This document shows positions 11,553 through 59,819 of a stretch of 64,000 nucleotides of DNA, piece by piece. Under the pieces are notes generated by a model. It did no database searches, was not told the origin of the DNA, and saw nothing but the letters and a program-made list of their open reading frames with translations. Where the stretch lies: IMG/VR virus record IMGVR_UViG_3300028822_000274, positions 1-64,000 of that record; one strand, written 5' to 3'. Made by a program: the position numbers and the translations under genes. This DNA is from a virus. Numbering within the stretch: position 1 is the first letter of the stretch; the number at the start of each line of letters is the position of its first letter.

Positions 11553-12326
11553 ATGCTGTGTGAAAGATGTGGTCAGTGGTCGGCATTTTATGAGCTTTAT
11601 GGGGAGAAGCTGTGCGACTTCTGTCTTATTGCCAGGAAGACAGAGTATCTGGATCAAGATTATGGTCATCACATATCTCTTCCGATAAAGAAGATTCCCT
11701 GTGTCACCGAAGCCATAAAAATCCGGTCACGCCTTAAGCAGACCAAACTTAACCGGGTCTTGATCGATATGTCGCCTGTCAAAGGGTCGGATGTTTATGC
11801 GTATGTAGTTGACCATGAAGTCACACCGGAATTTTTTGAACAGAAGGTTAAGCCGATCCTCAAGGCAGGTCATTTTTCTGACCCTACATTTATTTTGTGT
11901 CGTCCTGTTTTTGAGGAAGAGCGTGCTGTGAATGAGGTTGGGAGGGTGTTTAGTCTTAGCAGCACCAAAGAATCCGACATGACAGACACCTTAGATGTAT
12001 TCTTTTCTTTCTTGACACGTCTGAATTATGAGAAGGATCTATGCGAAATAACCGGTCGCAAATATAGTTTTTCTGAGTTTGTATCTAAACTCATAGGCGC
12101 TCAGTTTTATGACTGTATGCATAGTGGAATGAACAAAAAGCTGGTCTCGTTGCTCAAAACTCTTATCAGGCGTTTGGGTGCGGATCTTAGTACTGAGGTT
12201 TATCCTGCGGACACCAAAGGTGACAATTGGTATACTCTTGGTGATTGGCTTATGGAGGTTCACGACTTGCCGGAAGTAAACTTGAAGGCGATGCCTGAAA
12301 ACGTCGTGTCTGCACTAACAAAATAG
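11553..12326 (+). CDS. Zinc-ribbon protein of unknown function (257 aa)
   Basis: It starts 4 bases after the MazG-like stop. An N-terminal zinc ribbon (Cys3, 6, 21, 24) is followed by ~230 residues that read as a mixed alpha/beta globular domain with no catalytic motif I recognise. One of the larger early proteins, so probably more than an adaptor, but nothing specific can be claimed. Confidence 0.7.
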   Translation: MLCERCGQWSAFYELYGEKLCDFCLIARKTEYLDQDYGHHISLPIKKIPCVTEAIKIRSRLKQTKLNRVLIDMSPVKGSDVYAYVVDHEVTPEFFEQKVKPILKAGHFSDPTFILCRPVFEEERAVNEVGRVFSLSSTKESDMTDTLDVFFSFLTRLNYEKDLCEITGRKYSFSEFVSKLIGAQFYDCMHSGMNKKLVSLLKTLIRRLGADLSTEVYPADTKGDNWYTLGDWLMEVHDLPEVNLKAMPENVVSALTK

Positions 12327-12346
12327 GCGGTAAAATGAGGGAGGAT

Positions 12347-12595
12347 ATGAAATACATAATGATAAACAAGCAAGCTCCTGTTTTGTTCTCTCCAGCTTTG
12401 GAACATGCTGCTGTAGCTAATGCATGCGTACAAAGTGCTTCTGACATAATTACAGGCGCTGGTTTTGTGATGATTTTGCCTGAAGGCAGAGCAGAATGTT
12501 ATGGTTCTAGTGTAAGCCTCGGTGATTTACCTGCAGGAAAACATGACAGTAAAATAGTCACAAAAACGTTGTTCGGGGAGGAACACAATGGCTGA
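12347..12595 (+). CDS. Conserved-type small phage protein (82 aa)
   Basis: ATG 12347 is chosen because GAGGGAGG lies right before it; ATG 12335 has no good site. The protein opens MKYIMINKQAPVLFSPALEH and continues with AGFVMILP...C.GSSVSLG. This layout recurs in small phage proteins of unknown role; I recognise the type, not a function. It overlaps the next gene by 8 bases. Confidence 0.65.
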   Translation: MKYIMINKQAPVLFSPALEHAAVANACVQSASDIITGAGFVMILPEGRAECYGSSVSLGDLPAGKHDSKIVTKTLFGEEHNG

Positions 12596-12920
12596 CAAAA
12601 AAGAAAACAACAAAGGTATTACGTCCGGCGTAGATTTGGCTTCTCTCTTGGATGTCTCGCCGGAACAACTTGCGGCCCTGCAGTATGATGCGTTGAAGGG
12701 GCATGCCATTTCCAGGCTCAAGAAAGTCATCTCCTTATTGGAGGACAATCATTTGTGCCAAATTGAGGGTGAGATGAAATATTCTCCCGCTGGTGGCGCA
12801 TATGGTGGAGACAACCACTACGTTGATTTTTCCTGGTGCGAGTCTCAGCGTGAACATGGACGCGGTGTTGATTTGTTGGAGGTCGTGATCGATTTAATGC
12901 GACTTCAAAATCAAATATAG
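12588..12920 (+). CDS. Hypothetical protein (110 aa)
   Basis: ATG 12588 with GGGGAGG upstream. The N-terminus is charged and disordered-looking, then LLDVSPEQLAAL...LKKVISLLEDN forms helices. A central Gly/Tyr-rich region (AGGAYGGDNHYVDF) precedes a final helix. No family recognised. Confidence 0.6.
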   Translation: MADKKENNKGITSGVDLASLLDVSPEQLAALQYDALKGHAISRLKKVISLLEDNHLCQIEGEMKYSPAGGAYGGDNHYVDFSWCESQREHGRGVDLLEVVIDLMRLQNQI

Positions 12921-12950
12921 GGTGCACCATGGGTAAACCGGAGAACAAAG

Positions 12951-13184
12951 ATGAATAAAAAAGAAGCAAAAATAAAAGCACTTGGGCATGTTACTTTAGT
13001 TATTGATACAGCAATAGATGATATTTATGACTATTTTTGTACTATGCCAAGTAAGGATAGGGAAAAAGTAAAAGAAGCAATGGGTGAAATCAATGGAACC
13101 CTTTGGCGTCGCTTGCTGAGATTGTCGAGCAATAAAACAAAGGGCGAAAAGCCCACTGAGGAAGAGTTCGGACAACGTTGTTAA
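12951..13184 (+). CDS. Hypothetical protein (77 aa)
   Basis: ATG 12951 follows GGAGAACAAAG. Charged, helical and lysine-rich at both ends, with a Tyr/Asp central segment (IDDIYDYF). Nothing recognisable. Confidence 0.6.
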   Translation: MNKKEAKIKALGHVTLVIDTAIDDIYDYFCTMPSKDREKVKEAMGEINGTLWRRLLRLSSNKTKGEKPTEEEFGQRC

Positions 13185-13210
13185 GGCACTAACTGAGTGG
13201 GGAGCTACTC

Positions 13211-13420
13211 ATGGTCAATGATTTTGAGCCCGTTGCAAGCGAATATGGAGCGGAAGAAATAAACCTGTCCGTATTCCAGGCCCATGGTCCTGGCTCATGT
13301 CCTCTATGTGGCAGCAATACGATACTGACATCAGGGGAGTACGGAAGGTTTTACGGCTGTGTCAATTTTCCAGATTGCTGCGGATCGAGGCAGGTGAAAA
13401 TCATATACATACTAAAATAG
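13211..13420 (+). CDS. Solitary topoisomerase-type zinc ribbon
   Basis: 69 aa, GGGGAG before ATG 13211. Residues 28-60 (SCPLCGSNTIL...EYGRFYGCVNFPDC) are a C4 topoisomerase finger with Cys30, 33, 50 and 56. This is nearly the whole protein. It is the second free-standing copy in the window (compare 4214-4669). Single-stranded DNA binding is the likely activity; what it recruits is unknown. Confidence 0.75.
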   Translation: MVNDFEPVASEYGAEEINLSVFQAHGPGSCPLCGSNTILTSGEYGRFYGCVNFPDCCGSRQVKIIYILK

Positions 13421-13427
13421 GATCGTC

Positions 13428-13727
13428 ATGAAGATTAAGATTGAAAACAAACATCTTTATTCAATGGGCGAAAATGTTGTTGTTACGGCTATATCTTCTT
13501 TTGAGAATATAGATGGGAAAATGGAGGTTAAGACAAACAAATTGGCTGTCCCTAGAATCGGAAAGGTCACTGGTGTAAAAAGCGTTTGTGGTAATGAGTT
13601 CTGGACTGTTCGTTGGGGGATCATGAACAAAGAGGTCCTGGTTTCTCCAGAAAACATACGGGTTCCCCCTTACGGAAAAGCCGGTGATTTTCCTGTTTTA
13701 AACAGACAGAAAAGTTATTTTTGTTAG
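13428..13727 (+). CDS. Hypothetical beta-rich protein (99 aa)
   Basis: It follows the zinc ribbon by 7 bases. Alternating hydrophobic strands (VVVTAISSF, RIGKVTGV, EFWTVRWG, EVLVSPENI) suggest a small SH3- or KOW-like barrel. It ends 8 bases before the next promoter. Function unknown. Confidence 0.65.
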   Translation: MKIKIENKHLYSMGENVVVTAISSFENIDGKMEVKTNKLAVPRIGKVTGVKSVCGNEFWTVRWGIMNKEVLVSPENIRVPPYGKAGDFPVLNRQKSYFC

Positions 13728-15403: not shown

Positions 15404-15669
15404 TGTTGAGGTTTCGGGCAGTAGACAAGGGAAATATCTGCTATGGCGAAGATTCGGTTCAAGAAACGTGTACAAAAAAACGAGGTCACTTCTCAGTCGA
15501 AAGAAAAATCAGAGACGGTTCAGCAGTCTTTGGAGTGTGCCACGACGGCTGGTCAGAACACGAAGTCTGCAGAACGAGAAAAGAGGCAATCAATAGAGCA
15601 GAACAACTCAGAAAGCACTTCAGCTGGGGTAGAGATTTCATTTTCAGAGTTGTCCACATCACCGAATAA
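15403..15669 (+). CDS. Hypothetical small alpha/beta protein (88 aa)
   Basis: It starts by TGATG overlap with the NTPase stop. The sequence from residue 27 (GHFSVERKIRDGSAVFGV...) reads as three strands followed by a basic helix (TRKEAINRAEQLRKHF), a DNA- or RNA-binding-like layout. An overlapping frame (15443-15850) covers most of it and encodes the next protein's possible extension. Function unknown. Confidence 0.55.
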   Translation: MLRFRAVDKGNICYGEDSVQETCTKKRGHFSVERKIRDGSAVFGVCHDGWSEHEVCRTRKEAINRAEQLRKHFSWGRDFIFRVVHITE

Positions 15670-15676
15670 CCCACCG

Positions 15677-15850
15677 ATGTTCCGGTCACACCATGACGCG
15701 GCAAAGGAAGGGTGCCCGGCATGTGGGGCAGAACTCAACGCGAAATGCGTTATCCCAGCTCACCAGTACTGGACGATTTGTTGTTGGCGATGCCAAAAGA
15801 AGAAGCTTTATGATGTCAACTACCACATCAAAGGCACTAAAAAATCATGA
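15677..15850 (+). CDS. Zinc-ribbon protein (57 aa, possibly 135 aa)
   Basis: The zinc ribbon is clear: CPACGAELNAKC followed by ICCWRCQKKK. I give the conservative ATG 15677, which has no strong ribosome binding site. An in-frame ATG at 15443 would give 135 aa, but its extra 78 residues are low complexity (Ser/Glu/Lys/Gln) and lie wholly inside another gene, as expected of a shadow. The stop overlaps the next ATG (ATGA). Confidence 0.6.
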   Translation: MFRSHHDAAKEGCPACGAELNAKCVIPAHQYWTICCWRCQKKKLYDVNYHIKGTKKS

Positions 15851-16023
15851 ATAGTGAATTAAATCTCACGACCGACAATTTCATGTTGGTCTGCTCCAGG
15901 TGCGGCTCTTTTGAAGGCCCCCTTTATCTCATACCAGGTAGAAACGGACAGTTTTTATCTGGGTTCATTGTTTGCTGTGAGGGTTGTCTGGAAGTTGTAA
16001 TACCTAATAACAAGGATGAATGA
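15847..16023 (+). CDS. Zinc-ribbon protein (58 aa)
   Basis: It starts at ATG 15847 by ATGA overlap and its stop overlaps the next gene. Cys16, 19, 43, 44 and 47 (CSRCGSFEG ... CCEGC) make a zinc ribbon typical of this region. No further domain. Probably a small adaptor or nucleic acid-binding protein. Confidence 0.6.
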   Translation: MNSELNLTTDNFMLVCSRCGSFEGPLYLIPGRNGQFLSGFIVCCEGCLEVVIPNNKDE

Positions 16024-16226
16024 TGTTTCACTCTATGGATATTGATGGAAAATTCTTTGTGGAAATTATGTGCGATAAATGCTCTCACGCTGGCCCAAGA
16101 GTTCCGGCCAAAGGTTTCCTTGATCCAGAAGCAAGAAAAGAAGCAATCGAAAAAGCAAAAGAAAACGGTTTTTTGGACGAAGAGTGTTACGGCGGAAGGG
16201 CTTACTTCTGCGCAAACTGCAAATAG
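16020..16226 (+). CDS. Zinc-ribbon protein (68 aa)
   Basis: It starts at 16020 or 16023, overlapping the previous stop. One Cys pair (CDKC) lies near residue 18 and another (CANC) at the C-terminus, with a charged helix between (EARKEAIEKAKENG). This two-pair layout resembles other phage small zinc proteins. Function unknown. Confidence 0.65.
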   Translation: MMFHSMDIDGKFFVEIMCDKCSHAGPRVPAKGFLDPEARKEAIEKAKENGFLDEECYGGRAYFCANCK

Positions 16227-16235
16227 GAGAACGAC

Positions 16236-16454
16236 ATGGGAGACAATTACATCTTTACATTTGGCGTAGGGCATGAACTGGCAAAATATTACGTCGAGCT
16301 TTGTGGCGACATTTCCTCTACTCGGGAGGAAATGTTTCGTCTTTTCGGACCACACTGGGCCTTTCAATATGACAAGAAGAAAGGGGACGAGCTTGTGAAG
16401 GAATACAATTACATCCCTCTCAAAGTCGATTCTCCGGTGTCATTCCATCAGTAA
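16236..16454 (+). CDS. Hypothetical protein (72 aa)
   Basis: AGGAG precedes ATG 16236. A strand-helix beginning (YIFTFGVGHELAKYYVEL) and aromatic centre (MFRLFGPHWAFQY) suggest a small globular protein. It lies directly before thyX by 10 bases and may be co-expressed with it. No family recognised. Confidence 0.6.
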   Translation: MGDNYIFTFGVGHELAKYYVELCGDISSTREEMFRLFGPHWAFQYDKKKGDELVKEYNYIPLKVDSPVSFHQ

Positions 16455-16464
16455 AGGCTTTGTC

Positions 16465-18099
16465 ATGAAGATAGAAAAAGCAAGAGTTGAAGAAGTACGC
16501 CTCTCTGTGCCTGAAGGATTCAAAACAGCAGCAGAAGCTATAGAGCATTACGGCAGGATTTGCTATCGCTCAGAAGACAAAATCACCGAAACTTCTGCGG
16601 ACAAATTTGTGGATCGCCTGTACAAGAGTGGGCACCACGCCATGCTCGAGTTCTGTGATGCGACCGTAATCTATTCCTGTGATAGGGGTATGTCTCACGA
16701 GCAGGTTCGTCACAGGCTGGCCTCCTTTGCCCAGGAATGTGTTTCAGGTTCGACGAAAGTCCACAAAAAATGGTCTGTGAAGCAACTATACGATAGAAGC
16801 CAAACAGCCATGGGTAGGGAGTACAACAGTAGGCTTTTATTAAGAAGCGTGGACTCTGTTGGGAATATAGTTCAGAACAAGATGAAGGATATATGGCTTG
16901 TGGGTAAACGGCCGGTATTTCGTTTAATGACGAAGCTTGGCTACAGTATAGACGTTACTTCAGAGCATAGGTTCTGCATGAAGGACGGCTCAGAGATAAG
17001 ACTGAGCGAACTGAATGTAGGAGATCGTGTCTTGGTGAACGGGAGACCGGCGGCAATAAAAATTCCACATGAAGACGTTGAGGCCATGTATTTGCAGGAA
17101 GCAATGAGTCCGAGCGAAATAGCTGATACACTGTGCGTTCCTTACAGGAGCGTATTAAATTGCCTGCATAAACAAGGGGTATTTCAAAGGCGTCTTAACG
17201 ACAAAAACAAAGAAAAATATACCAAAAACCACACGAACGATTCTTATGAGAAGATGCGTTGCTCTATAAAAGAGCAGTACAAAAACGGCAGAATGGCGTG
17301 GAATAAAGGTCTGTCAGAAGACGACCCTTCTGTGTTTATCCAGGCGGAATCTCTTCGAAAAAACCATTATGACAATCGTCCTCTAGAGGAAAATTCTAAT
17401 TGGAAAGGGGGTGTGGATTCTGGTGTTGCACGGCGACGCAAGGCTGAGGTGGATGCTTGTGAGCTATGTTCTTTCCAAGGTTTTCTTGAGGTTCACCACA
17501 TAGATAAAAACACGAAAAACAATACGCCAAAGAATCTGGTAAAGGTGTGCAGGAATTGTCATAAAAAACTTCATTTTGGTTGGCATATCGGAATGGTTGC
17601 ACATGAAGATGAGGTAATATCCATAACGCCACTAGGTTTTGAGGATGTGTTTGACATCGAGATGTGCTCCCCATATCACAATTTCGTTGGTAACGGGATT
17701 GTGACCCACAATAGCACGCGATACTGCTCGTACAACAAGTCAAAATTCGATGGGGAAATCACAGTCATCGAGCAACCCTCCATAGCCGCTGCTGAAGGCT
17801 CAAAAGGAGCTGTTGCCAAGGCTACCTATGAACAGGCAGCACTATACGCTGAGGAGGCGTACAAGAAGCTCCTGGAGTGCGGAATAAAGCCCCAGGAGGC
17901 GCGGGCGGTACTACCGATAGGTCTCAGGACACGTATTGCAGTTAAGGCGAATCTGAGGGAGTGGCTTACGATTTTCAGCCTTCGTTGCGATACCCCAGCA
18001 CATCCGATAATCCGCGAATGTTCAAAGGAGGTACTCCGTGTCTTACGAGAGCGAGTCCCGTCAGTCTTTTCGGACCAGGGGGAGAGGTTCATGCTTTGA
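16465..18099 (+). CDS. thyX: ThyX thymidylate synthase with intein
   Basis: Flavin-dependent thymidylate synthase (dUMP to dTMP with methylene-tetrahydrofolate and FAD). The 544-aa precursor contains a 325-aa intein at residues 92-416. After splicing, residues 1-91 and 417-544 join to a 219-aa enzyme, the normal ThyX length, and restore the signature RHRLASFAQESTRY. The C-terminal extein keeps PIGLRTRI and NLREWLTIF, consistent with an active enzyme. It supplies dTMP during phage replication. Confidence 0.9.
   Translation: MKIEKARVEEVRLSVPEGFKTAAEAIEHYGRICYRSEDKITETSADKFVDRLYKSGHHAMLEFCDATVIYSCDRGMSHEQVRHRLASFAQECVSGSTKVHKKWSVKQLYDRSQTAMGREYNSRLLLRSVDSVGNIVQNKMKDIWLVGKRPVFRLMTKLGYSIDVTSEHRFCMKDGSEIRLSELNVGDRVLVNGRPAAIKIPHEDVEAMYLQEAMSPSEIADTLCVPYRSVLNCLHKQGVFQRRLNDKNKEKYTKNHTNDSYEKMRCSIKEQYKNGRMAWNKGLSEDDPSVFIQAESLRKNHYDNRPLEENSNWKGGVDSGVARRRKAEVDACELCSFQGFLEVHHIDKNTKNNTPKNLVKVCRNCHKKLHFGWHIGMVAHEDEVISITPLGFEDVFDIEMCSPYHNFVGNGIVTHNSTRYCSYNKSKFDGEITVIEQPSIAAAEGSKGAVAKATYEQAALYAEEAYKKLLECGIKPQEARAVLPIGLRTRIAVKANLREWLTIFSLRCDTPAHPIIRECSKEVLRVLRERVPSVFSDQGERFML
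16738..17712 (+). mobile_element. Intein with HNH homing endonuclease
   Basis: Residues 92-416 of the ThyX precursor. It begins with Cys92 and ends VTHN with Asn416, followed by Ser417 as the +1 nucleophile. Block B is TSEH at 165-168; block F/G is DIEMCSPYHNFVGNGIVTHN. The insert contains an HTH-like segment (MSPSEIADTLCVPYRSVLN), a NUMOD3-like stretch (GRMAWNKGLS), and an HNH core with Cys332, 335, His344-345, Cys362, 365 and His366. Insertion is inside the catalytic RHR motif, a typical highly conserved intein site. Confidence 0.9.
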
Positions 18100-35108: not shown

Positions 35109-35405
35109 ATGACGATTTTCTCTGGATCTAGGTATCGGATAGAAAAACCGATTCAAGTTCAAACAGCTGAAGGAACGAGTATTTGCCATAAGCTCAGGAA
35201 AACAACAGTTGAACCGCCTTTGGGTTCAAAAAGATACACTACAAAAGCGGGGGACACGTTAGAGTCGTTGGCCTTCGAACGCTACGGAAACGCGAATAAG
35301 TGGTACATCATAGCTGATGTCAATCCACATGTTTTCTGGATGTTCGATTTGATGGCTGGCCAGGACATCATCATTCCACCGAAATCATACGCGGAGCTTG
35401 GTTAA
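35109..35405 (+). CDS. LysM baseplate protein (gp53-like)
   Basis: 98 aa. Residues about 38-90 form one LysM (YTTKAGDTLESLAFERYG...DLMAGQDIIIPP). Such small LysM proteins join hub and wedge in contractile baseplates (T4 gp53, P2 gpX-like). It ends by overlap with the hub gene start. Confidence 0.85.
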   Translation: MTIFSGSRYRIEKPIQVQTAEGTSICHKLRKTTVEPPLGSKRYTTKAGDTLESLAFERYGNANKWYIIADVNPHVFWMFDLMAGQDIIIPPKSYAELG

Positions 35406-36817
35406 TGAATGCAGTTAAATTCCCTCTTATGGCATTTTGGGTTGCTGGGAAAGAGTTATCCTCAAGCGCTATGAGAAACATTCTCAACATTTCTCTAACG
35501 TACAGAGAGAAGAAAGCTTCTGATGGCACTGTTATTTTCAGTGACCCTGATTTTGAGCTTGCGTCATCTCAGGTCTTCAAGAAAGGGCGCAGTTTTGCAT
35601 TTTTATTGGGGTGGGCTAACGAGGCGAAGCCTTGTGGCCCATTCATAGTTAAGAAGTACTCTATCGACGCCGGGTCAGATGGGATGCCAAAATTTATACT
35701 ATCTTTTCAGGACCTGTCTCACAAATTGAACAAGAAGCAGAAAACGAAAAAACATCTCGGAAAACCTGCTCAAATCATAAAAAAGATTGCTGAGGAAAAT
35801 GATCTTGGGTACGACATCCAGAGTATCGAAGCTCTTGAGTTCACAGATTCTTTTCCTTTGATGCAAGCCCACATGACAGACGCACACCTTATCCAGTGGC
35901 TGGCGAATAAATACGGATACGTTTGGGGTCTTGAAGGACAAACATTGGTTTTCCGCAGACCTGAAAATGATGATGACGCTGGCAGGCAAACTGAGGTTCC
36001 TGTTTTGTCATACCGTATTCATGGCGCATCAATGTCGAGTTTTTCGTGCGAAGTTAAGTTCGCCAGCAAAGGTAAGAGAAAAAATGCTACGCAGAAGAGT
36101 TCTGGCATAGATGTTTTGACAGATGCTCCATTGAAGAATCAATCTATAGCAGCCATAGATACCGTAAAAGATTCAATACGTGAGGTTGTTCCACAGATTG
36201 GCCAGGCGATTGAAGGTGCATTTTCTGGTAGTGAAGCTGCACAAACAGATAAAGAAAAGCCATATAGCGGTAAGGTTAAAAATTTTGATGCTCCGACTGG
36301 TTTTTGGAGTGAGACCGAATTAGGGTCTGCCATATCCGATGCCATTGGCACAGATGAAAAAGATGAGGAATCTGGCGGTGACACTAAGAGCAGAGAAGAG
36401 GCTCTTAGGGAGTCTGCTGGTGTCCTATCGAGGTCGACTGAAATAATAGAAGCATCAGTTCAGCCGAGACTGGCCTCCATGAAGTACCGTCCGGGTGCAT
36501 CTGTGATTCTCGCTGGTTTAGGTCCTAGATTCAGCGGTAAATATCGCATTACCGAAGTCAGACATGTGTATGGGGAAAATTCGTTTACGACAACTTTGTC
36601 TGTCGTTAAACGTGATTTTGGTCCTTCAGGAAAAGACAGGGAAAAAATAGGTGACGCTGCCGAACAGCCTGAAAACATACCAGGCAACGAAGACACAAGT
36701 ACGAAGCCCCCCTCTAAGGATTTTTATGATGATTATAAAGATTTTGGCCTTGGTACGGGGCAATGGTCAACCAGAAGAGAAAAGCGAAAAAAGATCGACG
36801 GAGTAGATGATGTTTAA
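35405..36817 (+). CDS. Baseplate hub protein (gpD/gp27-like)
   Basis: 470 aa, overlapping the LysM stop. The order (GPFIVKKYSIDAG, FQDLSHKLNKKQK, AQIIKKIAEENDLGY, a WLANKYGYVWGLEGQTLVF segment) is that of phage late control D / VgrG N-terminal hub proteins. A C-terminal extension of about 200 residues is acidic and Lys-rich. Forms the trimeric hub under the tube and holds the spike encoded next. Confidence 0.82.
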   Translation: MNAVKFPLMAFWVAGKELSSSAMRNILNISLTYREKKASDGTVIFSDPDFELASSQVFKKGRSFAFLLGWANEAKPCGPFIVKKYSIDAGSDGMPKFILSFQDLSHKLNKKQKTKKHLGKPAQIIKKIAEENDLGYDIQSIEALEFTDSFPLMQAHMTDAHLIQWLANKYGYVWGLEGQTLVFRRPENDDDAGRQTEVPVLSYRIHGASMSSFSCEVKFASKGKRKNATQKSSGIDVLTDAPLKNQSIAAIDTVKDSIREVVPQIGQAIEGAFSGSEAAQTDKEKPYSGKVKNFDAPTGFWSETELGSAISDAIGTDEKDEESGGDTKSREEALRESAGVLSRSTEIIEASVQPRLASMKYRPGASVILAGLGPRFSGKYRITEVRHVYGENSFTTTLSVVKRDFGPSGKDREKIGDAAEQPENIPGNEDTSTKPPSKDFYDDYKDFGLGTGQWSTRREKRKKIDGVDDV

Positions 36818-37517
36818 CCCGGAATTCAGGGATCGTTTTTCTGGTCGGTATTTCGGAAAATACCGTGCTTACGTGACCGACATTGATGACCCAAAACAGT
36901 TGGGTAGGGTCAAAGCTAAGGTCCCTGAAGTCCTCGGGGATGACGAGGAGATAGGGTGGGCTTTGCCTGCTCCCGTGACTGGCGGTGCTCCGAATGTCGG
37001 TGATATGTGGATTCCGAATGTCGGCAATTTCGTGTGGATCGAATTTGAGTCTGGGAGTCCTGAATATCCTGTTTGGTCGCCTGGTCCTTGGGCGATACGT
37101 GATGGCGGAAGCATGACCCCTAAGCATTCTCGCGGCGAAAAAGATCTGACGGATTATTCTGTTCGCGAAGCTGGGAATGCTCCTCCCTCCCAATTTTCTG
37201 GCTCTTATACTCGCGTTCGTTCCATCCAGAGTGACGATGGTTCTTTTTTGGAGTTTGACGCTACGTCGGGGCAGGAAAGGGTTCAATTATCACATCGATC
37301 TGGCTCAAGACTTGAGTTCACGGCAGATGGTGGTGTCCAGGAAGTAGGTATTGCCGGTGTCAGGAAGATGGTAACCGGTAACTACAACCTACAAGCTGGT
37401 TCAGAAGAGCGTCTCATACTCGGCGAGAAGAATCTTAGGGTTGAGGGTATAACGAGCGAGGAATATGTCGGCAATAACGAGCGAGGAATATGTCGGCAAT
37501 GTGTCGAGGGCATATAA
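36807..37517 (+). pseudogene. Baseplate spike, N-terminal part (frameshifted gene)
   Basis: 236 aa. Residues about 15-100 are the OB-fold of gpV/gp5-type spikes (YRAYVTDIDDPKQLGRVKAKV...GWALPAPVTGG...VWIEFESGSPEYPVW). Reading then continues through beta repeats until a 25-bp tandem duplication (37450-37499) shifts the frame, and translation ends 18 bases later with unrelated residues. Removing one repeat copy would join it to the next frame as one 448-aa spike. It could be decayed, phase-variable or an assembly artefact. The ribosome binding site is GGAG before ATG 36807/36810. Confidence 0.75.
37450..37499 (+). repeat. 25-bp perfect tandem duplication splitting spike gene
   Basis: Two identical adjacent 25-base units, 37450-37474 and 37475-37499, both containing GAGGAATATGTCGGC. 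Because 25 is not a multiple of 3, the spike frame is broken here. Confidence 0.95.
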
Positions 37518-38178
37518 TGCTGTGTCTGAGGCAGGGAGCAGTTATTCGTCCTCCTGGGAGGGATCACATGAGGTATCTTGTGACGGCGGTTATTCTGTTG
37601 GATCTGCTGGAAATGGTTCGCTGTCTTTTGCTGGCCAGCTTGCTGTTTTCACTGGTTCGAATGTTCAGTTAACGGCTCTCGAATCGATAGATATGATCGC
37701 TTCTGCTGCCACGACAGGGGAAGTCCCTCGCGGACCTCTGGCACTTCCGGCGATGACTTTGCATGGATTCAATGGTCTTGTGAGTCTTAAGGCGACTGAT
37801 GTGACTGGGCTGGCCAAGGTCTGTTCACTCGAACACAATCCTACGACACTGGGGACAGCATCATCGACGTGGCAGGTTGCGCTTGGCGCTGTTCCGAGCG
37901 GGAAAATAGAGCTGGTGGACACACCCGCTACTCCAGCCACACCGAACGTGATGCTGGGGTCTGGAGCACTGAAACAACCTGTGCCAATGGGCGACAACGT
38001 GGTTCAGCTTATATCAAATATTTGGACGTTTTTATTGACTCACACGCACCCATCAGGTGTTGGGCCTACAGGTCCGTCTGCTGAATTGGCGGCTGCTTCA
38101 CCAACGATAGATCCTGTTCTTTCTGCTCCAGCGGGTTCTCCGAATGCTCTCAAATCCATGTACACGGTTACATCATGA
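37465..38178 (+). pseudogene. Baseplate spike, C-terminal part (frameshifted gene)
   Basis: 237 aa, open from ATG 37465 inside the first repeat, with GAGG 3 bases upstream, so independent initiation is imaginable. Content: beta-rich shaft followed by LLTHTHPSG, the His-x-His tip motif typical of spike proteins that bind iron at the apex. It is the natural continuation of the 36807 gene once a repeat copy is removed. Its stop overlaps the next gene (ATGA). Confidence 0.75.
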
Positions 38179-38681
38179 GTATGATAGCCGCCAGACCGAT
38201 ATTCATCTCGAATCTCGTTAGACTGTGGGAGGTAACAAAGCCCGACAGCTATGTGGACACCTGCGATGAGATAGAAGATTTTTGGACGAATGCTCGTGTT
38301 ACTGGTTTCGAGGCAGCGGCAGGTCCAGTGTTTGTACCCCAGGTCACGTATACGCCTATGGCTGTGCTGTCTGTTCCTGGTGGCACTGCAGCTGGAGCGG
38401 CCGGGCAGATTGAAAATGCGTTGACGATGTTGTGTATTTCTTCCGTCTTCACTGTCATCCCTCCATCAGTTTCTACGCCTCCGCCAGTACCTATTCCAGG
38501 TGGACCAGCCACACCAGGGCTTTTGACAACGAATTTGACCTCGATTTTTATTTCTGGGGCGCAAGGGTCTATTGCGAGTCCTGCTAATTCTGCGGCAAAA
38601 GCCATCGCGAATTTTTTGAGTGGGTGGCAAATTGTAGTTGCCGTTCCTCCAGCAGCCGGTTCTCCGGTACCGATAATTTGA
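38175..38681 (+). CDS. Hypothetical baseplate-region protein (168 aa)
   Basis: Starts by ATGA overlap with the spike fragment. Pro/Ala/Gly-rich, with weak hydrophobic strands and a PPSVSTPPPVPIPGG linker. No helices or catalytic motif. Given its location between spike and wedge genes it may be a baseplate or spike-tip accessory protein, but no family is recognised. Confidence 0.6.
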   Translation: MSMIAARPIFISNLVRLWEVTKPDSYVDTCDEIEDFWTNARVTGFEAAAGPVFVPQVTYTPMAVLSVPGGTAAGAAGQIENALTMLCISSVFTVIPPSVSTPPPVPIPGGPATPGLLTTNLTSIFISGAQGSIASPANSAAKAIANFLSGWQIVVAVPPAAGSPVPII

Positions 38682-39004: not shown

Positions 39005-39912
39005 ATGACGCGTTAGGCGGATTCAGTACAGTAGTAAGCACGTTATCTTCTGCGCTGGATACTCTTGGGGACATAATTGATGTAATATCTGCTTTTGCTG
39101 GCGGAATTGATGACATAAATGCAGCGATAATAGAAGCGGTCCAGGATTTGATTGTGAGTATCACTCAACAATTGACACAGACCGGCGTTTTTCAGCTTTT
39201 TCATACATCTCCTTCTGTTTCTTACACTCTCCCACCAAGACAGTGGCTTGCCGATGTTGCTGCGTCTCTCACCGATAGGATGGACGAGAGAAGGCCTATA
39301 TTGGTTGATGAAAGCGCTTATGTCGGGGCTGTTGTGGTATTGGCTACATCAGAAAATTTAAAAGATTTATTTACTGATTATTACAACCTCTCACAGTTGT
39401 TCCAGAGAAGGATTGCTAGACTTTCCCAAATAAATAATTGGCCTGTTGTCGGCCAGGAGTTTACTGTTGAGGAAGGTGTGGGTAGGGAACCAAATTGGAA
39501 TTCAAAAAAGGTTGTCGATATAATACCGAGGCTCGGCGAAATAACAGAAAAGATGCTCGGGTTTGCTAATTCGATCTCAGGGCCAGCGTCCTCGTCTGAT
39601 CTTTATGGAAACTTTGCTGACATGTTGTCTGCAAAAGCTTCCTATCTCACAAACTTTGTTTCTGACATAGAAGATATACTCAATGCAATCTCTATCGTGT
39701 TGAATTTTGATGGGGCTTACGTTCTTCCAATTTACGGTCAAGGAGATGCAGACTGGCTAAAAACACAGTTATTAAATTCTAGTGGTGGCCCACTTGACGC
39801 TGAAGATGCTAATTACTCTATGGGAGCAATGCTTTTATCGACAGGAGCAACGACAACACCTGCGGATACGTTGTTTTCGTTGTTTGGTTTGGCCACGGAG
39901 GTGACGCCATGA
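38953..39912 (+). CDS. Hypothetical baseplate-region protein (319 aa)
   Basis: ATG 38953 with GAGGAG about 12 bases upstream. Residues 20-75 are hydrophobic helices with a GG turn (STLSSALDTLGDIIDVISAFAGG), the middle is mixed, and the C-terminus is Ser/Gly/Thr-rich. Nothing specific is recognised. The gene order (spike, X, X, gp25-like) suggests a baseplate component, perhaps wedge- or hub-bound. Confidence 0.65.
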   Translation: MPNWISFDPSDLYPQEIDDALGGFSTVVSTLSSALDTLGDIIDVISAFAGGIDDINAAIIEAVQDLIVSITQQLTQTGVFQLFHTSPSVSYTLPPRQWLADVAASLTDRMDERRPILVDESAYVGAVVVLATSENLKDLFTDYYNLSQLFQRRIARLSQINNWPVVGQEFTVEEGVGREPNWNSKKVVDIIPRLGEITEKMLGFANSISGPASSSDLYGNFADMLSAKASYLTNFVSDIEDILNAISIVLNFDGAYVLPIYGQGDADWLKTQLLNSSGGPLDAEDANYSMGAMLLSTGATTTPADTLFSLFGLATEVTP

Positions 39913-40286
39913 CAATTTATCCGAGCGGGATAAAATTTCCATTCACTTTTGTTAGTGCGGGTGGAGTAGGAAAAGCAGATAATGGAGACAAAGTTCTTGC
40001 TAATTTAAAAGCACTAATTTTGTCTAAAATAAATGAACGTCTCATAAGAAAGAGTGTTGGGACGATAGGTTATTCACGTGTTTTCAAATCAGCTCATGCG
40101 ACGACATTAGAACCTGTAAAACATTTGATTAGGCAGGCAATAGTGAAGTTTGAGCCAAGAGCTGTTGGGGTAACAATCGACTTTAGGTCACAAGATGATA
40201 GAGCTGGCTCTAAGGTCATAGCAGATGTGGCTTTCATTTTTAAAAACACAGGGGAACCTGTTAAGATGAGTTTGGAACTGGATTAG
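39909..40286 (+). CDS. Baseplate wedge protein (gp25/gpW-like)
   Basis: 125 aa, ATGA overlap at 39909. Contains LKALILSKINERLIRKSVGTIGY and a C-terminal QAIVKFEPRAVGVTIDF, where EPR is the hallmark of T4 gp25 / P2 gpW. It nucleates the first sheath ring at the baseplate. Directly precedes gpJ-like, as in P2-like orders. Confidence 0.8.
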   Translation: MTIYPSGIKFPFTFVSAGGVGKADNGDKVLANLKALILSKINERLIRKSVGTIGYSRVFKSAHATTLEPVKHLIRQAIVKFEPRAVGVTIDFRSQDDRAGSKVIADVAFIFKNTGEPVKMSLELD

Positions 40287-40294
40287 GAGGACAC

Positions 40295-42058
40295 ATGCCA
40301 GTCGTTACGACTCTCTCCGGAGAAACAATTTCAGTTGATTTGGAGACTCGAGATTTTGAAGGTTTTCGATCTGACGTCTTGGATTCAGGTGGCCTCGCTG
40401 ATACGTATGCTCCTGACTGGACAGACAGGTCTGAGCTTGACCTCGGTGTCGCTCTTGTTGAGTCTTTTGCTTTCATGGCTGATAACCTGGCGTATTACCA
40501 GGACCGCTGGGCGAATGAAGCTCTTTTCCCATCTGCTGTTCAGAGAAGATCGATTATCGAGCACTGCAAGCTCATAGGATATGAGTTGCGCCCTGCGGTG
40601 AGTGCGAGAGTAGAGCTGACGTTCATCGCAAGCGGAGCTGGCACTGTTCCAGCCGGAACGAAAGTTCTCGTAGATACTTCCGATGGTTCAAGCCCAGCCA
40701 CGTTTGAGCTTGTCTCTGATTTCGTCTCAGCAGGTGCCGGTACTACGACTGGTGTCATTGCCTACGAAGGAAGCTCTGTCGATGAGGTCATCGGTTCGAG
40801 TGATGGTTCTCCGGATCAGTCGTTCGAGCTGTCGAGCACTCCACTCGCTTTGAATCCAGATGGATCTTCGAGCCTGGAAGTGACTGTTACAGTCGGAGCT
40901 GTCGACCAGGTATGGACCGAGGTTGACAATTTTTTGGAATCAGATTTTACAAATCAGCATTTCCGCACAGAAATAGACGAGAATGACACTGTCACTGTGA
41001 TTTTTGGTGATGGTGTCAACGGTGCGATCCCGTCGAGCGGGGTGGACAACATATCAGCAAATTATCGTGTTGGCGGCGGTATTTCTGGAAACCAGATTGC
41101 CCCTGATAAGCTGACTCGACTTGTTGGCTCATTTGCTTTTGTTACGTCAGTGACGAACCCTGCGGCTCCTACAGGTGGCATCGATAGGGAAACGATAGCG
41201 CAGGCAAAGGTAAACGCTCCTTTGAGCCTTAAAGCCATGAATAGGGCTGTGACGCACGACGATTACAAAGCTATCGCTCTCCAGGTACCTGGTGTGCTTC
41301 ATGCGTTTGCTTATCGTGGTGCCGGTAGTTTTGAGGAACGTGTTGTGATCGCAGGTGGCGGGTCGGATCCTGTTCCTGCTGGAACATGGGATCCTTACAC
41401 AGAGACTGGCACCGACTTGATAGGGGCTGTCGGCGAGTATCTCAGCGCAAGAAAAACGACACCTGTAGTGCTCTACGTTGATCCTGTTCGCGTTGTAGAT
41501 GTGCGGCTGATTGTGAACACATATTTGTACAGCAACACGAGACAGTCAGATGCACTGAGGGTTATCGACGATGCGATAACTGATTTGTTTGCTACGGAAA
41601 ACCAAGTCCTCGGGCAGCAGGTTCCTCTTTCCAGGGTTCATGAAGTAATAGAAGGGCTCACTGGGATTGATTACGTTAATGTCCTTCAGATGCAGCGTGT
41701 ACCGAATCCCAGAAAATTGCCGTTTGGTAGCTCCACTGATGTTTCGATTGGTGATTTTATCGTCGGTCCAGATACATTAGATGAAACGTATACTCTGTCA
41801 TTTCTGACTTCCACAACATTTGAGGTTGTAGGCGCTGCAACAGGGTTTCAAGGAACCGGGATTGTCGGTTCGGCTTTTACTACTTCAGATGGTACTTTAA
41901 CCTTTACTGTTACAGCTGGCGCTATAGCTCCTTCAAACACAGACAGGTTTGAAATAGTTACTGGCCCATACGTTGGGAACATAAATCCAGCCGACGACGA
42001 GATGGTCAGTCTTTATAACGATACTTTCCAGAGTGTAGTGTATGGCGGTATAGTCTAA
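40295..42058 (+). CDS. Baseplate wedge protein (gpJ/gp6-like)
   Basis: 587 aa, GGAGG upstream. N-terminus LADTYAPDWTDRSELDLGVALVESFAFMADNLAYYQDR and the C-terminal VPLSRVHEVIEGLTGIDYVNV fit the baseplate J family. The middle holds beta modules (SGAGTVPAGTKVLVDT). It forms the wedge ring that triggers contraction. Longer than P2 gpJ by inserted beta domains. Confidence 0.85.
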   Translation: MPVVTTLSGETISVDLETRDFEGFRSDVLDSGGLADTYAPDWTDRSELDLGVALVESFAFMADNLAYYQDRWANEALFPSAVQRRSIIEHCKLIGYELRPAVSARVELTFIASGAGTVPAGTKVLVDTSDGSSPATFELVSDFVSAGAGTTTGVIAYEGSSVDEVIGSSDGSPDQSFELSSTPLALNPDGSSSLEVTVTVGAVDQVWTEVDNFLESDFTNQHFRTEIDENDTVTVIFGDGVNGAIPSSGVDNISANYRVGGGISGNQIAPDKLTRLVGSFAFVTSVTNPAAPTGGIDRETIAQAKVNAPLSLKAMNRAVTHDDYKAIALQVPGVLHAFAYRGAGSFEERVVIAGGGSDPVPAGTWDPYTETGTDLIGAVGEYLSARKTTPVVLYVDPVRVVDVRLIVNTYLYSNTRQSDALRVIDDAITDLFATENQVLGQQVPLSRVHEVIEGLTGIDYVNVLQMQRVPNPRKLPFGSSTDVSIGDFIVGPDTLDETYTLSFLTSTTFEVVGAATGFQGTGIVGSAFTTSDGTLTFTVTAGAIAPSNTDRFEIVTGPYVGNINPADDEMVSLYNDTFQSVVYGGIV

Positions 42059-42932: not shown

Positions 42933-45900
42933 ATGAGCGTTTTCAGCAATTTACGCGGTGTCCTGTCAACTGCTTTTTCTCTCGGCAAAACAGATAAGAT
43001 CGAGATAGAAAACAGTTCTGGAGACTTTGTTTTAAAAACAGCAGGCTCAGAACGTGCTCGTCTAAATTCCAGTGGTGTGACAGTTACTGGTGATTCGGAT
43101 TTGTCAGCAGGGTCTGTATATAAAATAAATGGCACACAACTTGACGGTGGCGATGTAGGGCTCGGAAACGTCACCAATGACGCACAGCTAAAAAGAGCAG
43201 CAGGAGACATAAATACTTTCACGGAAAAAGGTACTCCTGTTGCTGCTGATCTCCTTCTCGTAGAAGATAGTGCTGACAGCAACAACAAAAAGAAAGTACA
43301 GATAGACAATCTTCCTGCGAGCGGATCAAAACCTATCGTTCAGACTCTGAAAGTCGGACAGGCTGGATCGGATGTAGATTACAACTCGATCAAAGACGCA
43401 GTTGATGCAGCTGTTGCAGGAGGAGCCTCTGGATCTGCCCCGTGGAGAATCGACGTGTACCCTGGAGCATACGTCGAAGACCCGATGACGGTTCCTCTTG
43501 GGGTTAATATCATATCAACAGATCAACGGGTAGACACTGTATTCGTAGTAGCTTCTGATCCCACAAATGACCTATTTACTCTTGCCGGTGGGTACATTTG
43601 TGGCCTGAATATGTCTGGAGTCACCTCTACTGGGAAGGCTCTCGTAACAGCTTCTACGGCAGGGTCCCTGAACGTCCTTCACGGAGTTTCTTTCAACAAC
43701 TGCTATTATGGAATCCACGTATCAGGCGGGGCTACGATGATTTGCACCAACGTATCCTGTTTGATCGCAAGCGCTGGCGTATCAGTTGACACAGGGATTC
43801 GTGTTACTGGGACAAGCTCTTTCTTGCTTATGTCTGGTTGTTTTTTCAGTGTACCATCAGCAGTTCTTCCTGCATATGCTTCGAATCCGATTGAAACTGC
43901 AGTTTGTATAGAAGATGCAGCTGATGCTTTTATATTAGGTGGGGTTTTTCAGGTTTCCCCTAAAAATTCTGACGCGAATGCTATTCTTGTTGATTCTGCG
44001 GCTACTTGTTTTGTGTCGAGCGGCGTTTTTGCAGGTTGCGGCAATGCAATCCATATAGGGTCGTCTGGTTCGAATACTTCTGTTGTTTCCCAGGGCAGTT
44101 CTTTCAAAGACAATTCTCTGAACACTCTCATTGATAGCAGCACAGGTACTATTTTCTGTAACGAGACTGTTGATCTTGTCCAGGATTCCCTTGTTTCAGG
44201 AGCAAAAAAACTGGGTGTAGCCCAGATTCGAGATGACGAACGAGTAGACCTCTTAGGTGATGTTCAGTACAAATTCGTAGAAACGGATAGACGAGCTGGG
44301 CTCGGTGTTTTCTTCAATGAGATGGGTGCTTCCGGTGTGTCCTCAGGTGGCATCGTGTCCATAAATTCAGGCCTCGATGTAGACGTTTCCGCTGGTACAG
44401 GATGGGTTAGGCGCAGGTCGACCTACAACGATTTGGCGTCTGTTGTCTGGAACGACGTCATAGCGCTGACGTTGACGGCAAGCAACACAAACTACGTTTA
44501 TTACAACGAGACTTCTGGTGCTGTTACAGCTTCTGTTACTCCTCCTGGGTATTCAGATTCAATTTTGTTGGCTACTGTTGTCACCGATGGATCTGGGGTT
44601 CGGTACATTCATCAAACAAGGAACTATGTAGACTCTCCTGCTGAGCAGCTGAGGGATTATCTCCTGGCTACAAGAAAGATTGCTTTGAATAGTGGTCTGG
44701 CTGTAGACGCCGGGACGACTTCGCTGAAGTTCGACGTTACGGTTGGTTCCTACTACCTGGGTCTTGACCTTATCTCGTTCGCCGGTGCTGCTGATGCCAC
44801 GTTCTCATATTTTTACGGGACAAATGGGGCGAACGAGGTCTCGTCTCAAACTGAGATCGACGACGAATACTACGACAACGCAGGTACACTGACACTCCTT
44901 ACGGCTGGGTATTTCAAGGCCGATACAGTTGTCTTGACCAGCGATGGCAGAATCAGCGTCATCTATGGCACCGAGGAATTCGCGACTCAGGAAGAAGCAG
45001 AGTCGGCGGCTGTAGCGAATACCCCTACTTTCATCGAGCACTCAGCTATTCAGTTGGCAAATATCGTCGTCGAAGACGGTGCTGGCATAGCATCTTTCGT
45101 CGACATCAGGCCTCAGCCTGGCGCTATTACAGGTGGTGGTGGAGCTGCTGGAGTCAGCAACCACGGTCTTCTCTCTGGTCTTGCTGATGACGACCATGTT
45201 CAATATCTGCTGTCTTCTGGTTCGAGGGCCATGTCAGGTTCTCTTGATATGGGCGGGAACAACATCACGAACGTTGCGAACGTAGATGGTGTCGATGTCT
45301 CAAGCCACGCTTCACGTCATGATCCTGGAGGAGCTGACTCACTCACAACTGGTACTCCCGTAACAACTCTGGTGGATGGCGCAGCGGCAGAAGGGTCTGC
45401 TGCGAGTTATGCCAGGAGCGATCACCAACACGGAATAGCGAGTGGCGTTCCCTCTTCTGTGGGAACCTCCAATTCTGCTGGTTCAGCGAGCACTGTTGCT
45501 GCCAGTGATCACGTTCATGACCATGGCGCTCAAACAGATGGGACTTTACATGCTGCAGCCACAACTGGGGTCAATGGCTTTATGTCTGCAGCAGACAAAA
45601 CAAAGCTTGATAATGCCACGGCAACACCAACGGCAGACAGGCTTGTCATTGCGGACGGATTCGGCACAGTTGATGATTGGATAACGAGTGGTGATTTAAC
45701 AGAAGCAGTCTCGTCTGTACTCACCATAAATAATGGTTCTGGGGCAGTTCTTGGCTCAGGCACGTCTATCCAAATTGCACAGGCTGGTGCAGGTCAAAGT
45801 GGCTATTTAACTTCTGTTGATTGGAATACATTTAATGATAAAATTGACGGTGGCGTTAATGTTGGCGCATTAGGTGTAGGTGTTTTCAAACAAAAAAATG

Positions 45901-47024
45901 GAACCGATCTAGAATTTTTGAACATAAATTCTGGATCGAATAAAATCACAGTTGTTGCTGATTTAAGTAACGATGAAATAGATATAGATGTAGATGAGTC
46001 TAATGTCGTCCATCAAAATCTTTCTGGGGCAGGGACAAATGATCATTCAGCCATAGACGCTCATATTGGAAACTCTAACATACACTTTACTGAAAGTTCT
46101 ATCGACCACACTAACATATCTAATATTGGGGCGAATACACACGCTCAGATTGATACACATATTGCAGACAGCACCATTCATTTCACTGAAGGGAATATTG
46201 ATCATACTGCTATTCAGAACATAGGGACAAACAGCCACGTTCAGATCGATGCTCATATTGCGAGCACAACGAACCCACACTCTGTTGACAAGACTGATGT
46301 GTCCCTCGGGAACGTCACCAACGATTCTCAGCTGAAAAGGGCGGCAAATGATTTTACAACTTTCACTGAGAAGACTTCACTCGCAGACGATGATGTAATT
46401 CTCATTGAGGACAGCGCTGACACTTACAGCAAAAAGCGGCTGAAAGCTGTAAACCTCCCGAGTGGTTCCGGTGGTGGAGGGCCTTCTACTCCAGGGACAA
46501 CGACTGATAATGCCATTGTTCGATGGGACGGGACAGACGGTTCTGCTATTCAGAACAGCGGTACAACTGTCGATGACAACGACGTCATCACTCTCAATAG
46601 CGATGGTGGTGCAGTCAAGGTTTCGACTCCAGCTAGTGATTTAAATGCAAACGGAATCATAATTTCAGGTACAGTAGACACTAACGCAACTGGTGTCGGA
46701 GCGCTGCTTTTCCTGAATACAGATGGGAACTGGGACGAAGCTCAGGCAAACTCTGCTACTACAGTTGGTCAGCTCGGCTTGGCCATGGAATCTGGTACAG
46801 GGACGAAGAAAATCCTTCTGTATGGTATTTTCAGGAAGGATGCCTGGGGTTGGTCTGTCGGACACCAAAACGGCGCTCTTTACGTGAGCGGGGCGACTGC
46901 CGGAGCCATGACGCAAACCGCCCCTAGCACTGATGGTTACCAGATTCAGAAATGCGGATACGCGATAAGCGCAGATGCGATTATGTTTGCGCCGTCGCCT
47001 GACATCGCGGAGTACGTAGCATGA
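42933..47024 (+). CDS. Long tail fibre protein with beta-helix region
   Basis: 1363 aa. Residues about 75-130 (LGNVTNDAQLKRAAGDINTF...ADLLLVEDSADS) recur near 1120-1175 (LGNVTNDSQLKRAANDF...DDVILIEDSADT), a repeated fibre module. Residues about 150-420 resemble a pectate-lyase-type parallel beta-helix (YNSIKDAVDAAVAGG, a PWRIDVYPGAY rung). Later a HxxN/HIxDSTIHF repeat (about 1045-1120) forms a shaft. Receptor binding by the trimer is inferred. No intramolecular chaperone recognised. Confidence 0.8.
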   Translation: MSVFSNLRGVLSTAFSLGKTDKIEIENSSGDFVLKTAGSERARLNSSGVTVTGDSDLSAGSVYKINGTQLDGGDVGLGNVTNDAQLKRAAGDINTFTEKGTPVAADLLLVEDSADSNNKKKVQIDNLPASGSKPIVQTLKVGQAGSDVDYNSIKDAVDAAVAGGASGSAPWRIDVYPGAYVEDPMTVPLGVNIISTDQRVDTVFVVASDPTNDLFTLAGGYICGLNMSGVTSTGKALVTASTAGSLNVLHGVSFNNCYYGIHVSGGATMICTNVSCLIASAGVSVDTGIRVTGTSSFLLMSGCFFSVPSAVLPAYASNPIETAVCIEDAADAFILGGVFQVSPKNSDANAILVDSAATCFVSSGVFAGCGNAIHIGSSGSNTSVVSQGSSFKDNSLNTLIDSSTGTIFCNETVDLVQDSLVSGAKKLGVAQIRDDERVDLLGDVQYKFVETDRRAGLGVFFNEMGASGVSSGGIVSINSGLDVDVSAGTGWVRRRSTYNDLASVVWNDVIALTLTASNTNYVYYNETSGAVTASVTPPGYSDSILLATVVTDGSGVRYIHQTRNYVDSPAEQLRDYLLATRKIALNSGLAVDAGTTSLKFDVTVGSYYLGLDLISFAGAADATFSYFYGTNGANEVSSQTEIDDEYYDNAGTLTLLTAGYFKADTVVLTSDGRISVIYGTEEFATQEEAESAAVANTPTFIEHSAIQLANIVVEDGAGIASFVDIRPQPGAITGGGGAAGVSNHGLLSGLADDDHVQYLLSSGSRAMSGSLDMGGNNITNVANVDGVDVSSHASRHDPGGADSLTTGTPVTTLVDGAAAEGSAASYARSDHQHGIASGVPSSVGTSNSAGSASTVAASDHVHDHGAQTDGTLHAAATTGVNGFMSAADKTKLDNATATPTADRLVIADGFGTVDDWITSGDLTEAVSSVLTINNGSGAVLGSGTSIQIAQAGAGQSGYLTSVDWNTFNDKIDGGVNVGALGVGVFKQKNGTDLEFLNINSGSNKITVVADLSNDEIDIDVDESNVVHQNLSGAGTNDHSAIDAHIGNSNIHFTESSIDHTNISNIGANTHAQIDTHIADSTIHFTEGNIDHTAIQNIGTNSHVQIDAHIASTTNPHSVDKTDVSLGNVTNDSQLKRAANDFTTFTEKTSLADDDVILIEDSADTYSKKRLKAVNLPSGSGGGGPSTPGTTTDNAIVRWDGTDGSAIQNSGTTVDDNDVITLNSDGGAVKVSTPASDLNANGIIISGTVDTNATGVGALLFLNTDGNWDEAQANSATTVGQLGLAMESGTGTKKILLYGIFRKDAWGWSVGHQNGALYVSGATAGAMTQTAPSTDGYQIQKCGYAISADAIMFAPSPDIAEYVA

Positions 47025-58913: not shown

Positions 58914-59819
58914 ATGGGTAGAGATATTCGAAAACTCGACTTGCTGGCGATTTCTGCCAGTAAAAAAGCTGTGGATCTACTTCATGGGTACTTGAAGGGG
59001 ATTCGCGAGGACATCGTTTCGTCGCTGAGTGGTGGACTGAGGAACTTCCATGTTATTCCGAGAGCGCTCATCACGACTGCCGACGCCACGGATTTGGCGA
59101 GTGGTCAGACTTTGGCGAATGCGATCAAAGCTGACATGAACACGCACTTTGCGTCGACTGATGAGCACCCTTTGGCCTCTGGTCAAACGATTGCTGCTGC
59201 AGATGCATCAGATCAGGCGTCGATGAACACTTTGATGAACGAAATCAAGGGGGACCTGAACACGCACCTTACCGAGGCTGGCGTGCACATGGTTTCTGAC
59301 CTGTTCAACACCGTGACTGCAGCTAACGCAAGCGACGAGGCGACTTCGGTCACTCTCGTGAACCAGGTGAAGGCTCTGTACAACGTTCACATCGCGTCTT
59401 CTATCGCTTCGCTGGTCGCCCATAAAGGAACAGTGGGGAATCAGAATGTTGTGGCGGCTGACGCATCCGACCTCGGAACTGTGGTCACTCTGGCGAATGA
59501 CCTGAAAGGTGTTGTCAACCTGCACCTGGCTTCGTACGGTTTCCAGGGATCTCACGTTGCTGCTTCTGCTGAGACCGTTGCTGCTGCAGATGCATCAGAT
59601 CAGGCGACAGCGAACACGTTGCTGAACGAAATCAAGGCCGATTTCAACACTCACCTCCTGGAGTCGGGTGTTCACATTTCGTCTGATTTCAAGAGCATCA
59701 TCTCTACTGCGGATGCTTCTGACCTTGCGTCAAGCGTCACCCTGGCGAATGCTCTCAAGTCGACGTTCACGTTACACATTGCCAACGCCATGACCGCAGG
59801 TTTCATCGCGGACATGTAA
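58914..59819 (+). CDS. Six-repeat structural protein
   Basis: 301 aa, GGAGG upstream. After a ~50-residue basic helix come six imperfect repeats built on AADASDxATxxTLxNEIKxDxNTHL, spaced about 40-50 residues. Two copies share an identical 29-base DNA stretch (59191-59219 and 59578-59606), so duplication is recent. Codon use and GC match the capsid gene, suggesting high expression. Probably a virion protein such as decoration, whisker or fibre shaft, but no family is recognised. Confidence 0.7.
   Translation: MGRDIRKLDLLAISASKKAVDLLHGYLKGIREDIVSSLSGGLRNFHVIPRALITTADATDLASGQTLANAIKADMNTHFASTDEHPLASGQTIAAADASDQASMNTLMNEIKGDLNTHLTEAGVHMVSDLFNTVTAANASDEATSVTLVNQVKALYNVHIASSIASLVAHKGTVGNQNVVAADASDLGTVVTLANDLKGVVNLHLASYGFQGSHVAASAETVAAADASDQATANTLLNEIKADFNTHLLESGVHISSDFKSIISTADASDLASSVTLANALKSTFTLHIANAMTAGFIADM
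59191..59606 (+). repeat. 29-bp direct repeat inside repeat-protein gene
   Basis: Identical 29-base units at 59191-59219 and 59578-59606, each encoding the AAADASDQA core of a protein repeat. Indicates recent internal duplication or gene conversion. Confidence 0.85.

Follow-up and report, generated by a model that had tools for sequence, protein, structure and literature searches.

The window analysed here is the first 64,000 nucleotides (bases 1-64000) of the 103,713-bp record of an uncultivated virus. In it the gene for the central spike of the tail baseplate lies in two reading frames, with a 25-bp tandem duplication where its halves meet. No intact spike can be read from the record in its present form, and the homology of the locus to gp5/gpV-type spikes is clear. 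Very probably a recent tandem duplication of 25 bp broke the frame of a single spike gene, and the resulting lesion is functionless in itself; a real mutation and an assembly artefact are about equally likely as its source. We infer that the spike is essential and that the lesion is recent and non-adaptive. A functionless frameshift is of little importance, and it shows how a short duplication can make one structural gene resemble two in an environmental virus record.

A spike gene in two reading frames

The features of the locus are listed below; identities refer to the closest relative, IMGVR_UViG_3300040801_004573 (L002).

35405..36817, + strand: baseplate hub/tail protein, intact, directly upstream of the spike (PHROG 52, E=3.8e-16; 71% identical in L002, where it is in one frame)
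36807..37517, + strand: N-terminal spike ORF, 236 aa, with the OB fold at residues 19-95 and the first part of a gp5-type beta-helix
37450..37474, + strand: copy 1 of the 25-bp tandem duplication, containing ATG 37465 and a GAGG Shine-Dalgarno-like sequence
37475..37499, + strand: copy 2 of the 25-bp tandem duplication, opposite a 25-base gap in the L002 alignment
37465..38178, + strand: C-terminal spike ORF, 237 aa, with the remaining shaft, a variable middle domain and the THTHP tip motif (75% identical to the C part in L002)
38175..38681, + strand: intact gene directly downstream of the spike, with no Pfam or PHROG match, conserved in L002 (65-66% identical)
39909..40286, + strand: gp25-like baseplate wedge protein, intact (Pfam GPW_gp25, E=2.5e-8)
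40295..42058, + strand: baseplate J-like wedge protein, intact (Pfam Baseplate_J, E=2.7e-13; 87% identical in L002)

The two identical 25-base units are present where the earlier note had placed them, and the two halves of one spike gene are in different frames, as it had claimed. The identical run in fact extends over 27 bases (37449-37475 versus 37474-37500). The N-terminal ORF stops 18 bases beyond the repeat, so that its final 13 residues, NERGICRQCVEGI, are out of frame; its second ATG, at 36810, corresponds to the start position in L002. The C-terminal frame opens just past 37449, and its first start codon is ATG 37465, within copy 1. Tandems of this kind, with 25-base units, are expected by chance about 6e-11 times in 64 kb, and the duplication at 37450-37499 is the only exact tandem in the window with a run of at least 14 bases. 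Among the tandems in 455 kb of sequence from the window phage and its relatives, it alone has a period that is not a multiple of 3, the remaining short tandems in the relatives having periods of 12, 18 or 24. One relative (G001) carries a cluster of in-frame tandems at 12094-13428 of locus L040, their periods being 12, 18 and 24 bases.

The identification of the locus as a spike begins with the N-terminal ORF, which matches Pfam Phage_base_V above the Pfam cut-off (E=2.6e-19), bearing out the OB fold that had been read from this half, and PHROG 430, baseplate hub/tail lysozyme (E=4.6e-19). Its residues 125-214 align with positions 378-460 of T4 gp5, in the beta-helix, and a profile built from the relatives matches T4-like central spikes with E values of about 1e-15 to 1e-12. 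The C-terminal ORF alone gave no match in the Pfam and PHROG searches. The His-x-His motif described in this half (THTHP) is conserved in most orthologues, and on the strength of the motif it is predicted to form a metal-binding tip. Structure models, which were monomeric and of low to moderate confidence, place short regular strands in the shaft region; the full-length model was poor (mean pLDDT 47) and served for strand positions only. A fold search with the shaft fragment found no significant match. The spike sits among baseplate genes assigned by Pfam and PHROGs, namely the hub/tail protein, a LysM-like tail protein X, gp25 and J, and the relatives are collinear. The Phage_base_V OB fold, the match to the gp5 beta-helix, the THTHP tip and the baseplate neighbours therefore identify the locus as encoding the central spike of a phage with a contractile tail. 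In its intact form the gene most likely encodes a single-chain, trimeric central spike of the gp5/gpV type. The record holds a single Phage_base_V domain and a single spike locus, in two pieces, with neither another Phage_base_V gene nor a spare spike.

The gpV-type spike of phage P2 is encoded, like the spikes of most of the relatives studied here, by a single gene with an OB fold, a shaft and a C-terminal HxH motif, which in the gpV type forms a metal-binding tip. Set against the general architecture of the gpV type, the window gene differs in being split by a duplication and in having a longer, variable middle domain. T4 gp5, the baseplate central spike and tail-associated lysozyme (PDB 1k28, 1pdl, 5iv5), likewise combines an N-terminal OB fold with a beta-helix shaft region (profile E about 1e-12). 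Unlike T4 gp5, the window spike has no visible lysozyme domain between the OB fold and the shaft, and its tip motif is inside the same gene, as in P2 gpV.

The spike gene in related viruses

In L002 the spike is one ORF of 448 aa without the 25-bp duplication, 84% identical to the window in the N part. The single 448-aa ORF that the earlier note obtained on removing one copy thus has exactly the length of the spike in the closest relative. L002 is collinear with the window across the whole baseplate region, and because the flanks are collinear the locus is not a chimeric join.

The relatives, a clade of uncultivated myoviruses, were found first by a scan with baseplate J, which brought out L002, and then by one with an alignment as query; degenerate-pattern scans with the two halves of the window's own spike found none, since all are too distant for such patterns. 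The spike is one uninterrupted ORF (301-473 aa, including maximal start extension) in every one of the 18 orthologous contigs that carry the gene whole, and its domains are on a single polypeptide in each, whereas in the window they are divided between two frames. The sample consists of 13 contigs (L009-L021) and 5 from a second scan (L071, L072, L073, L074 and L076); some are near-identical to one another, and together they represent about 14 distinct lineages. Two further contigs, L075 and L077, hold the start of the spike gene only and are outside the 18. A natural two-protein arrangement, for which it had been proposed to search the homologues, is ruled out in this sample. A TGA reported as an internal stop in the spike of relative G012 proved to be the normal stop of that gene. 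An exact 33-base pattern of the duplication site retrieved no near-identical strain, and no one-copy or other copy of the site, from the viral contigs scanned, a set from which near-identical records may be absent.

The spike orthologues vary at the tip and in the middle. In a 104-kb relative (L017, 2986-4338) the His-x-His tip motif is missing and the remainder is conserved; judging by its sequence, this tip may be capped differently. In the spikes of L018 and L020 (301-302 aa) the whole middle domain is missing and the shaft joins the tip directly. The gap of these two in the alignment with 36807-38178 starts near the site of the window's duplication.

Apart from the spike, no sense-strand gene was found in two frames when the record and its relatives were compared in both directions. 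The comparison covered about 65 record ORFs (18,000 aa), a few of which are antisense ORFs; two-frame matches in the antisense ORFs were rejected as broken genes, as these are not genes. The two spike halves show no visible decay, and they are under constraint like that on their neighbours. Against L002, the N half has a dN/dS of about 0.06 and the C half one of about 0.08, compared with 0.03-0.13 for neighbours with an estimable dS, all of these figures being rough because synonymous sites are near saturation. Amino-acid changes polarised with an outgroup are balanced, with 12 window-specific versus 8 L002-specific changes and 14 versus 10 in the two halves. Undecayed halves fit a recent event, an event that occurred only in assembly, or a gene that still works, and the constraint data do not separate these because most of the divergence predates the event.

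Origin and possible function of the duplication

Since the relatives are all whole, a chance mutation or an assembly glitch is likely, rather than a new biological switch. There is close to an even chance that the duplication is a real replication-slippage mutation in the assembled phage molecule or in a minor genotype. The earlier note, which was correct that a frame-shifting duplication breaks one gene, had weighed phase variation, a defective prophage and an assembly error; it left out a plain deleterious mutation, as well as the internal start codon that the duplication creates for the tip half. If the duplication is real, slippage during replication would have produced the tandem copy, and the genome would yield an OB-fold chain without the shaft and possibly also a tip-half chain. 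To make infectious tails, a two-copy genome would then most likely depend on spike supplied by an intact sibling. Ribosomal frameshifting, considered as a way of joining the frames, seems unlikely: inspection of the overlap (37453-37517) by eye showed neither a familiar slippery heptamer nor a hungry codon, and after a +1 shift the shaft would still hold eight duplicated residues.

Somewhat short of even, and still substantial, is the probability that the molecules have one copy and that the second was introduced in assembly, for example because two overlapping ends of contigs were joined end to end or because strain variants were collapsed. Consistent with this, the record is that of an assembled, uncultivated virus, and the duplication is exact and occurs once, in an otherwise conserved gene, when all other comparable genes are intact. 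The consensus, moreover, carries a break in a gene expected to be essential; such a break should be rare in the population and therefore seldom the consensus, and this speaks either for an artefact or for a gene that has kept its function. Against an artefact, the record sequence examined has no further duplicated joint and no ambiguous bases, and a double copy of 52 bases is normally represented in read k-mers. Most current de Bruijn assemblers reach a final k above 52 bases, and a double copy then usually needs reads that carry both units.

Both biological readings put forward in the earlier note fare poorly. RecA-independent slippage can add or remove tandem direct repeats of about 25 bp, and a repeat of the size seen here could in this way pass between one and two copies and turn the spike on and off. 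We consider such phase variation very improbable, because there are only two copies and no conserved mutable tract, the 25-mer being unrepeated in L002; no relative shows any sign of a switchable spike or has a frame broken at this site, and a spike-less particle, with a structural spike turned off, has no evident advantage. A full-text search of the literature found no relevant paper on phase variation of phage tails by slipped-strand tandem repeats. It is just as improbable that the record represents a decaying prophage, trapped in a host chromosome and losing its genes. A broken structural gene is typical of such elements, and the ParB-like gene makes plasmid-like lysogeny conceivable; against this, none of the other comparable ORFs is broken, and the record encodes its own DNA polymerase A, helicase, primase, RecA and DNA ligase, which are found elsewhere in its 103,713 bp together with the ParB-like protein, QueC and glycosyltransferases. 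The idea is weakened further because neither an integrase nor a prophage relative was found: the record yielded no tyrosine integrase, serine recombinase or AAA_31 ParA, and scans of the genomes of about 85,000 species of bacteria and archaea turned up no relative of either the spike or the head protein, whereas the 24 loci of relatives found by the head protein are all in virus contigs.

A functional two-chain spike, in which the tip half is started at ATG 37465 and assembles with the chain of OB fold and shaft base, would be a genetically encoded counterpart of cleaved T4 gp5. We regard this as unlikely; it keeps a small chance because the duplication puts an ATG in the frame of the tip half, and the Shine-Dalgarno score of this ATG is typical. 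That score, -7.4 kcal/mol, equals the average over 37 gene starts of the window (-7.4) and is reached by 3.5% of random sites, although the spacing is short, with 3 nt from GAGG to the start. Both halves also appear constrained, but the constraint measured against L002 is mostly older than the event. In T4 the mature spike likewise has two chains per subunit, gp5* and gp5C, which remain together after cleavage; it is the complex (gp27-gp5*-gp5C)3, in which gp5C, a stable trimer on its own, trimerises the whole (PMC3004832). C-terminal beta-helix fragments fold alone, as trimers, and the intertwined shaft of gp5 comprises residues 428-575 (PMC4576200). T4 gp5, however, is split by a protease, in a linker and after assembly, whereas in the window the gene itself is split, within the shaft. 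The break falls at about residue 223, some 9 residues beyond the part aligned to gp5 460, and by extrapolation it would therefore be inside the intertwined shaft. The models place strands on either side of it, with low to moderate confidence (in the fragment model the block pLDDT is about 78-84 there and poor elsewhere). The N chain would lack the element that trimerises gp5 and would carry 13 unrelated residues, and no relative has a split gene. If true, a two-chain spike would be an example from nature of a contractile-tail spike in two parts, and it would test the need for a covalent link between the beta-helix shaft and the OB fold.

Distant relatives and other genes of the record

The nearest named phages are the Streptomyces phages BRock, LuckySocke and their relatives (112-116 kb), which are distant from the window phage (34% identity in the terminase and 30% in baseplate J) and match its gene order around the baseplate. 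By position, the putative counterpart of the spike in LuckySocke is gp96, a single gene annotated only as 'minor tail protein' and, at 201 aa, much shorter.

The ParB-like gene (ParB_N and HTH_ParB) is at 15511-16701 of locus L006, which is 79511-80701 of the record, and it stands there without an AAA_31 ParA. At 1961-3741 of L007 (about 85961-87741 of the record), QueC is followed by a radical SAM protein and then by several glycosyltransferases; QueC and the radical SAM protein are perhaps part of a 7-deazaguanine pathway. Within the window, an intein that carries an HNH endonuclease interrupts the thymidylate synthase ThyX at 16465-18099 (Pfam Thy1, Intein_splicing and HNH). The gene at 58914-59819 has internally repeated segments, with an exact repeat of about 28 bases at 59191 and 59578. 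Finally, a putative tail fibre (42933-47024; 1363 aa) matches a 478-aa ORF at the end of the L002 contig in two separated places, a pattern that suggests internal repeats or a big difference in length.
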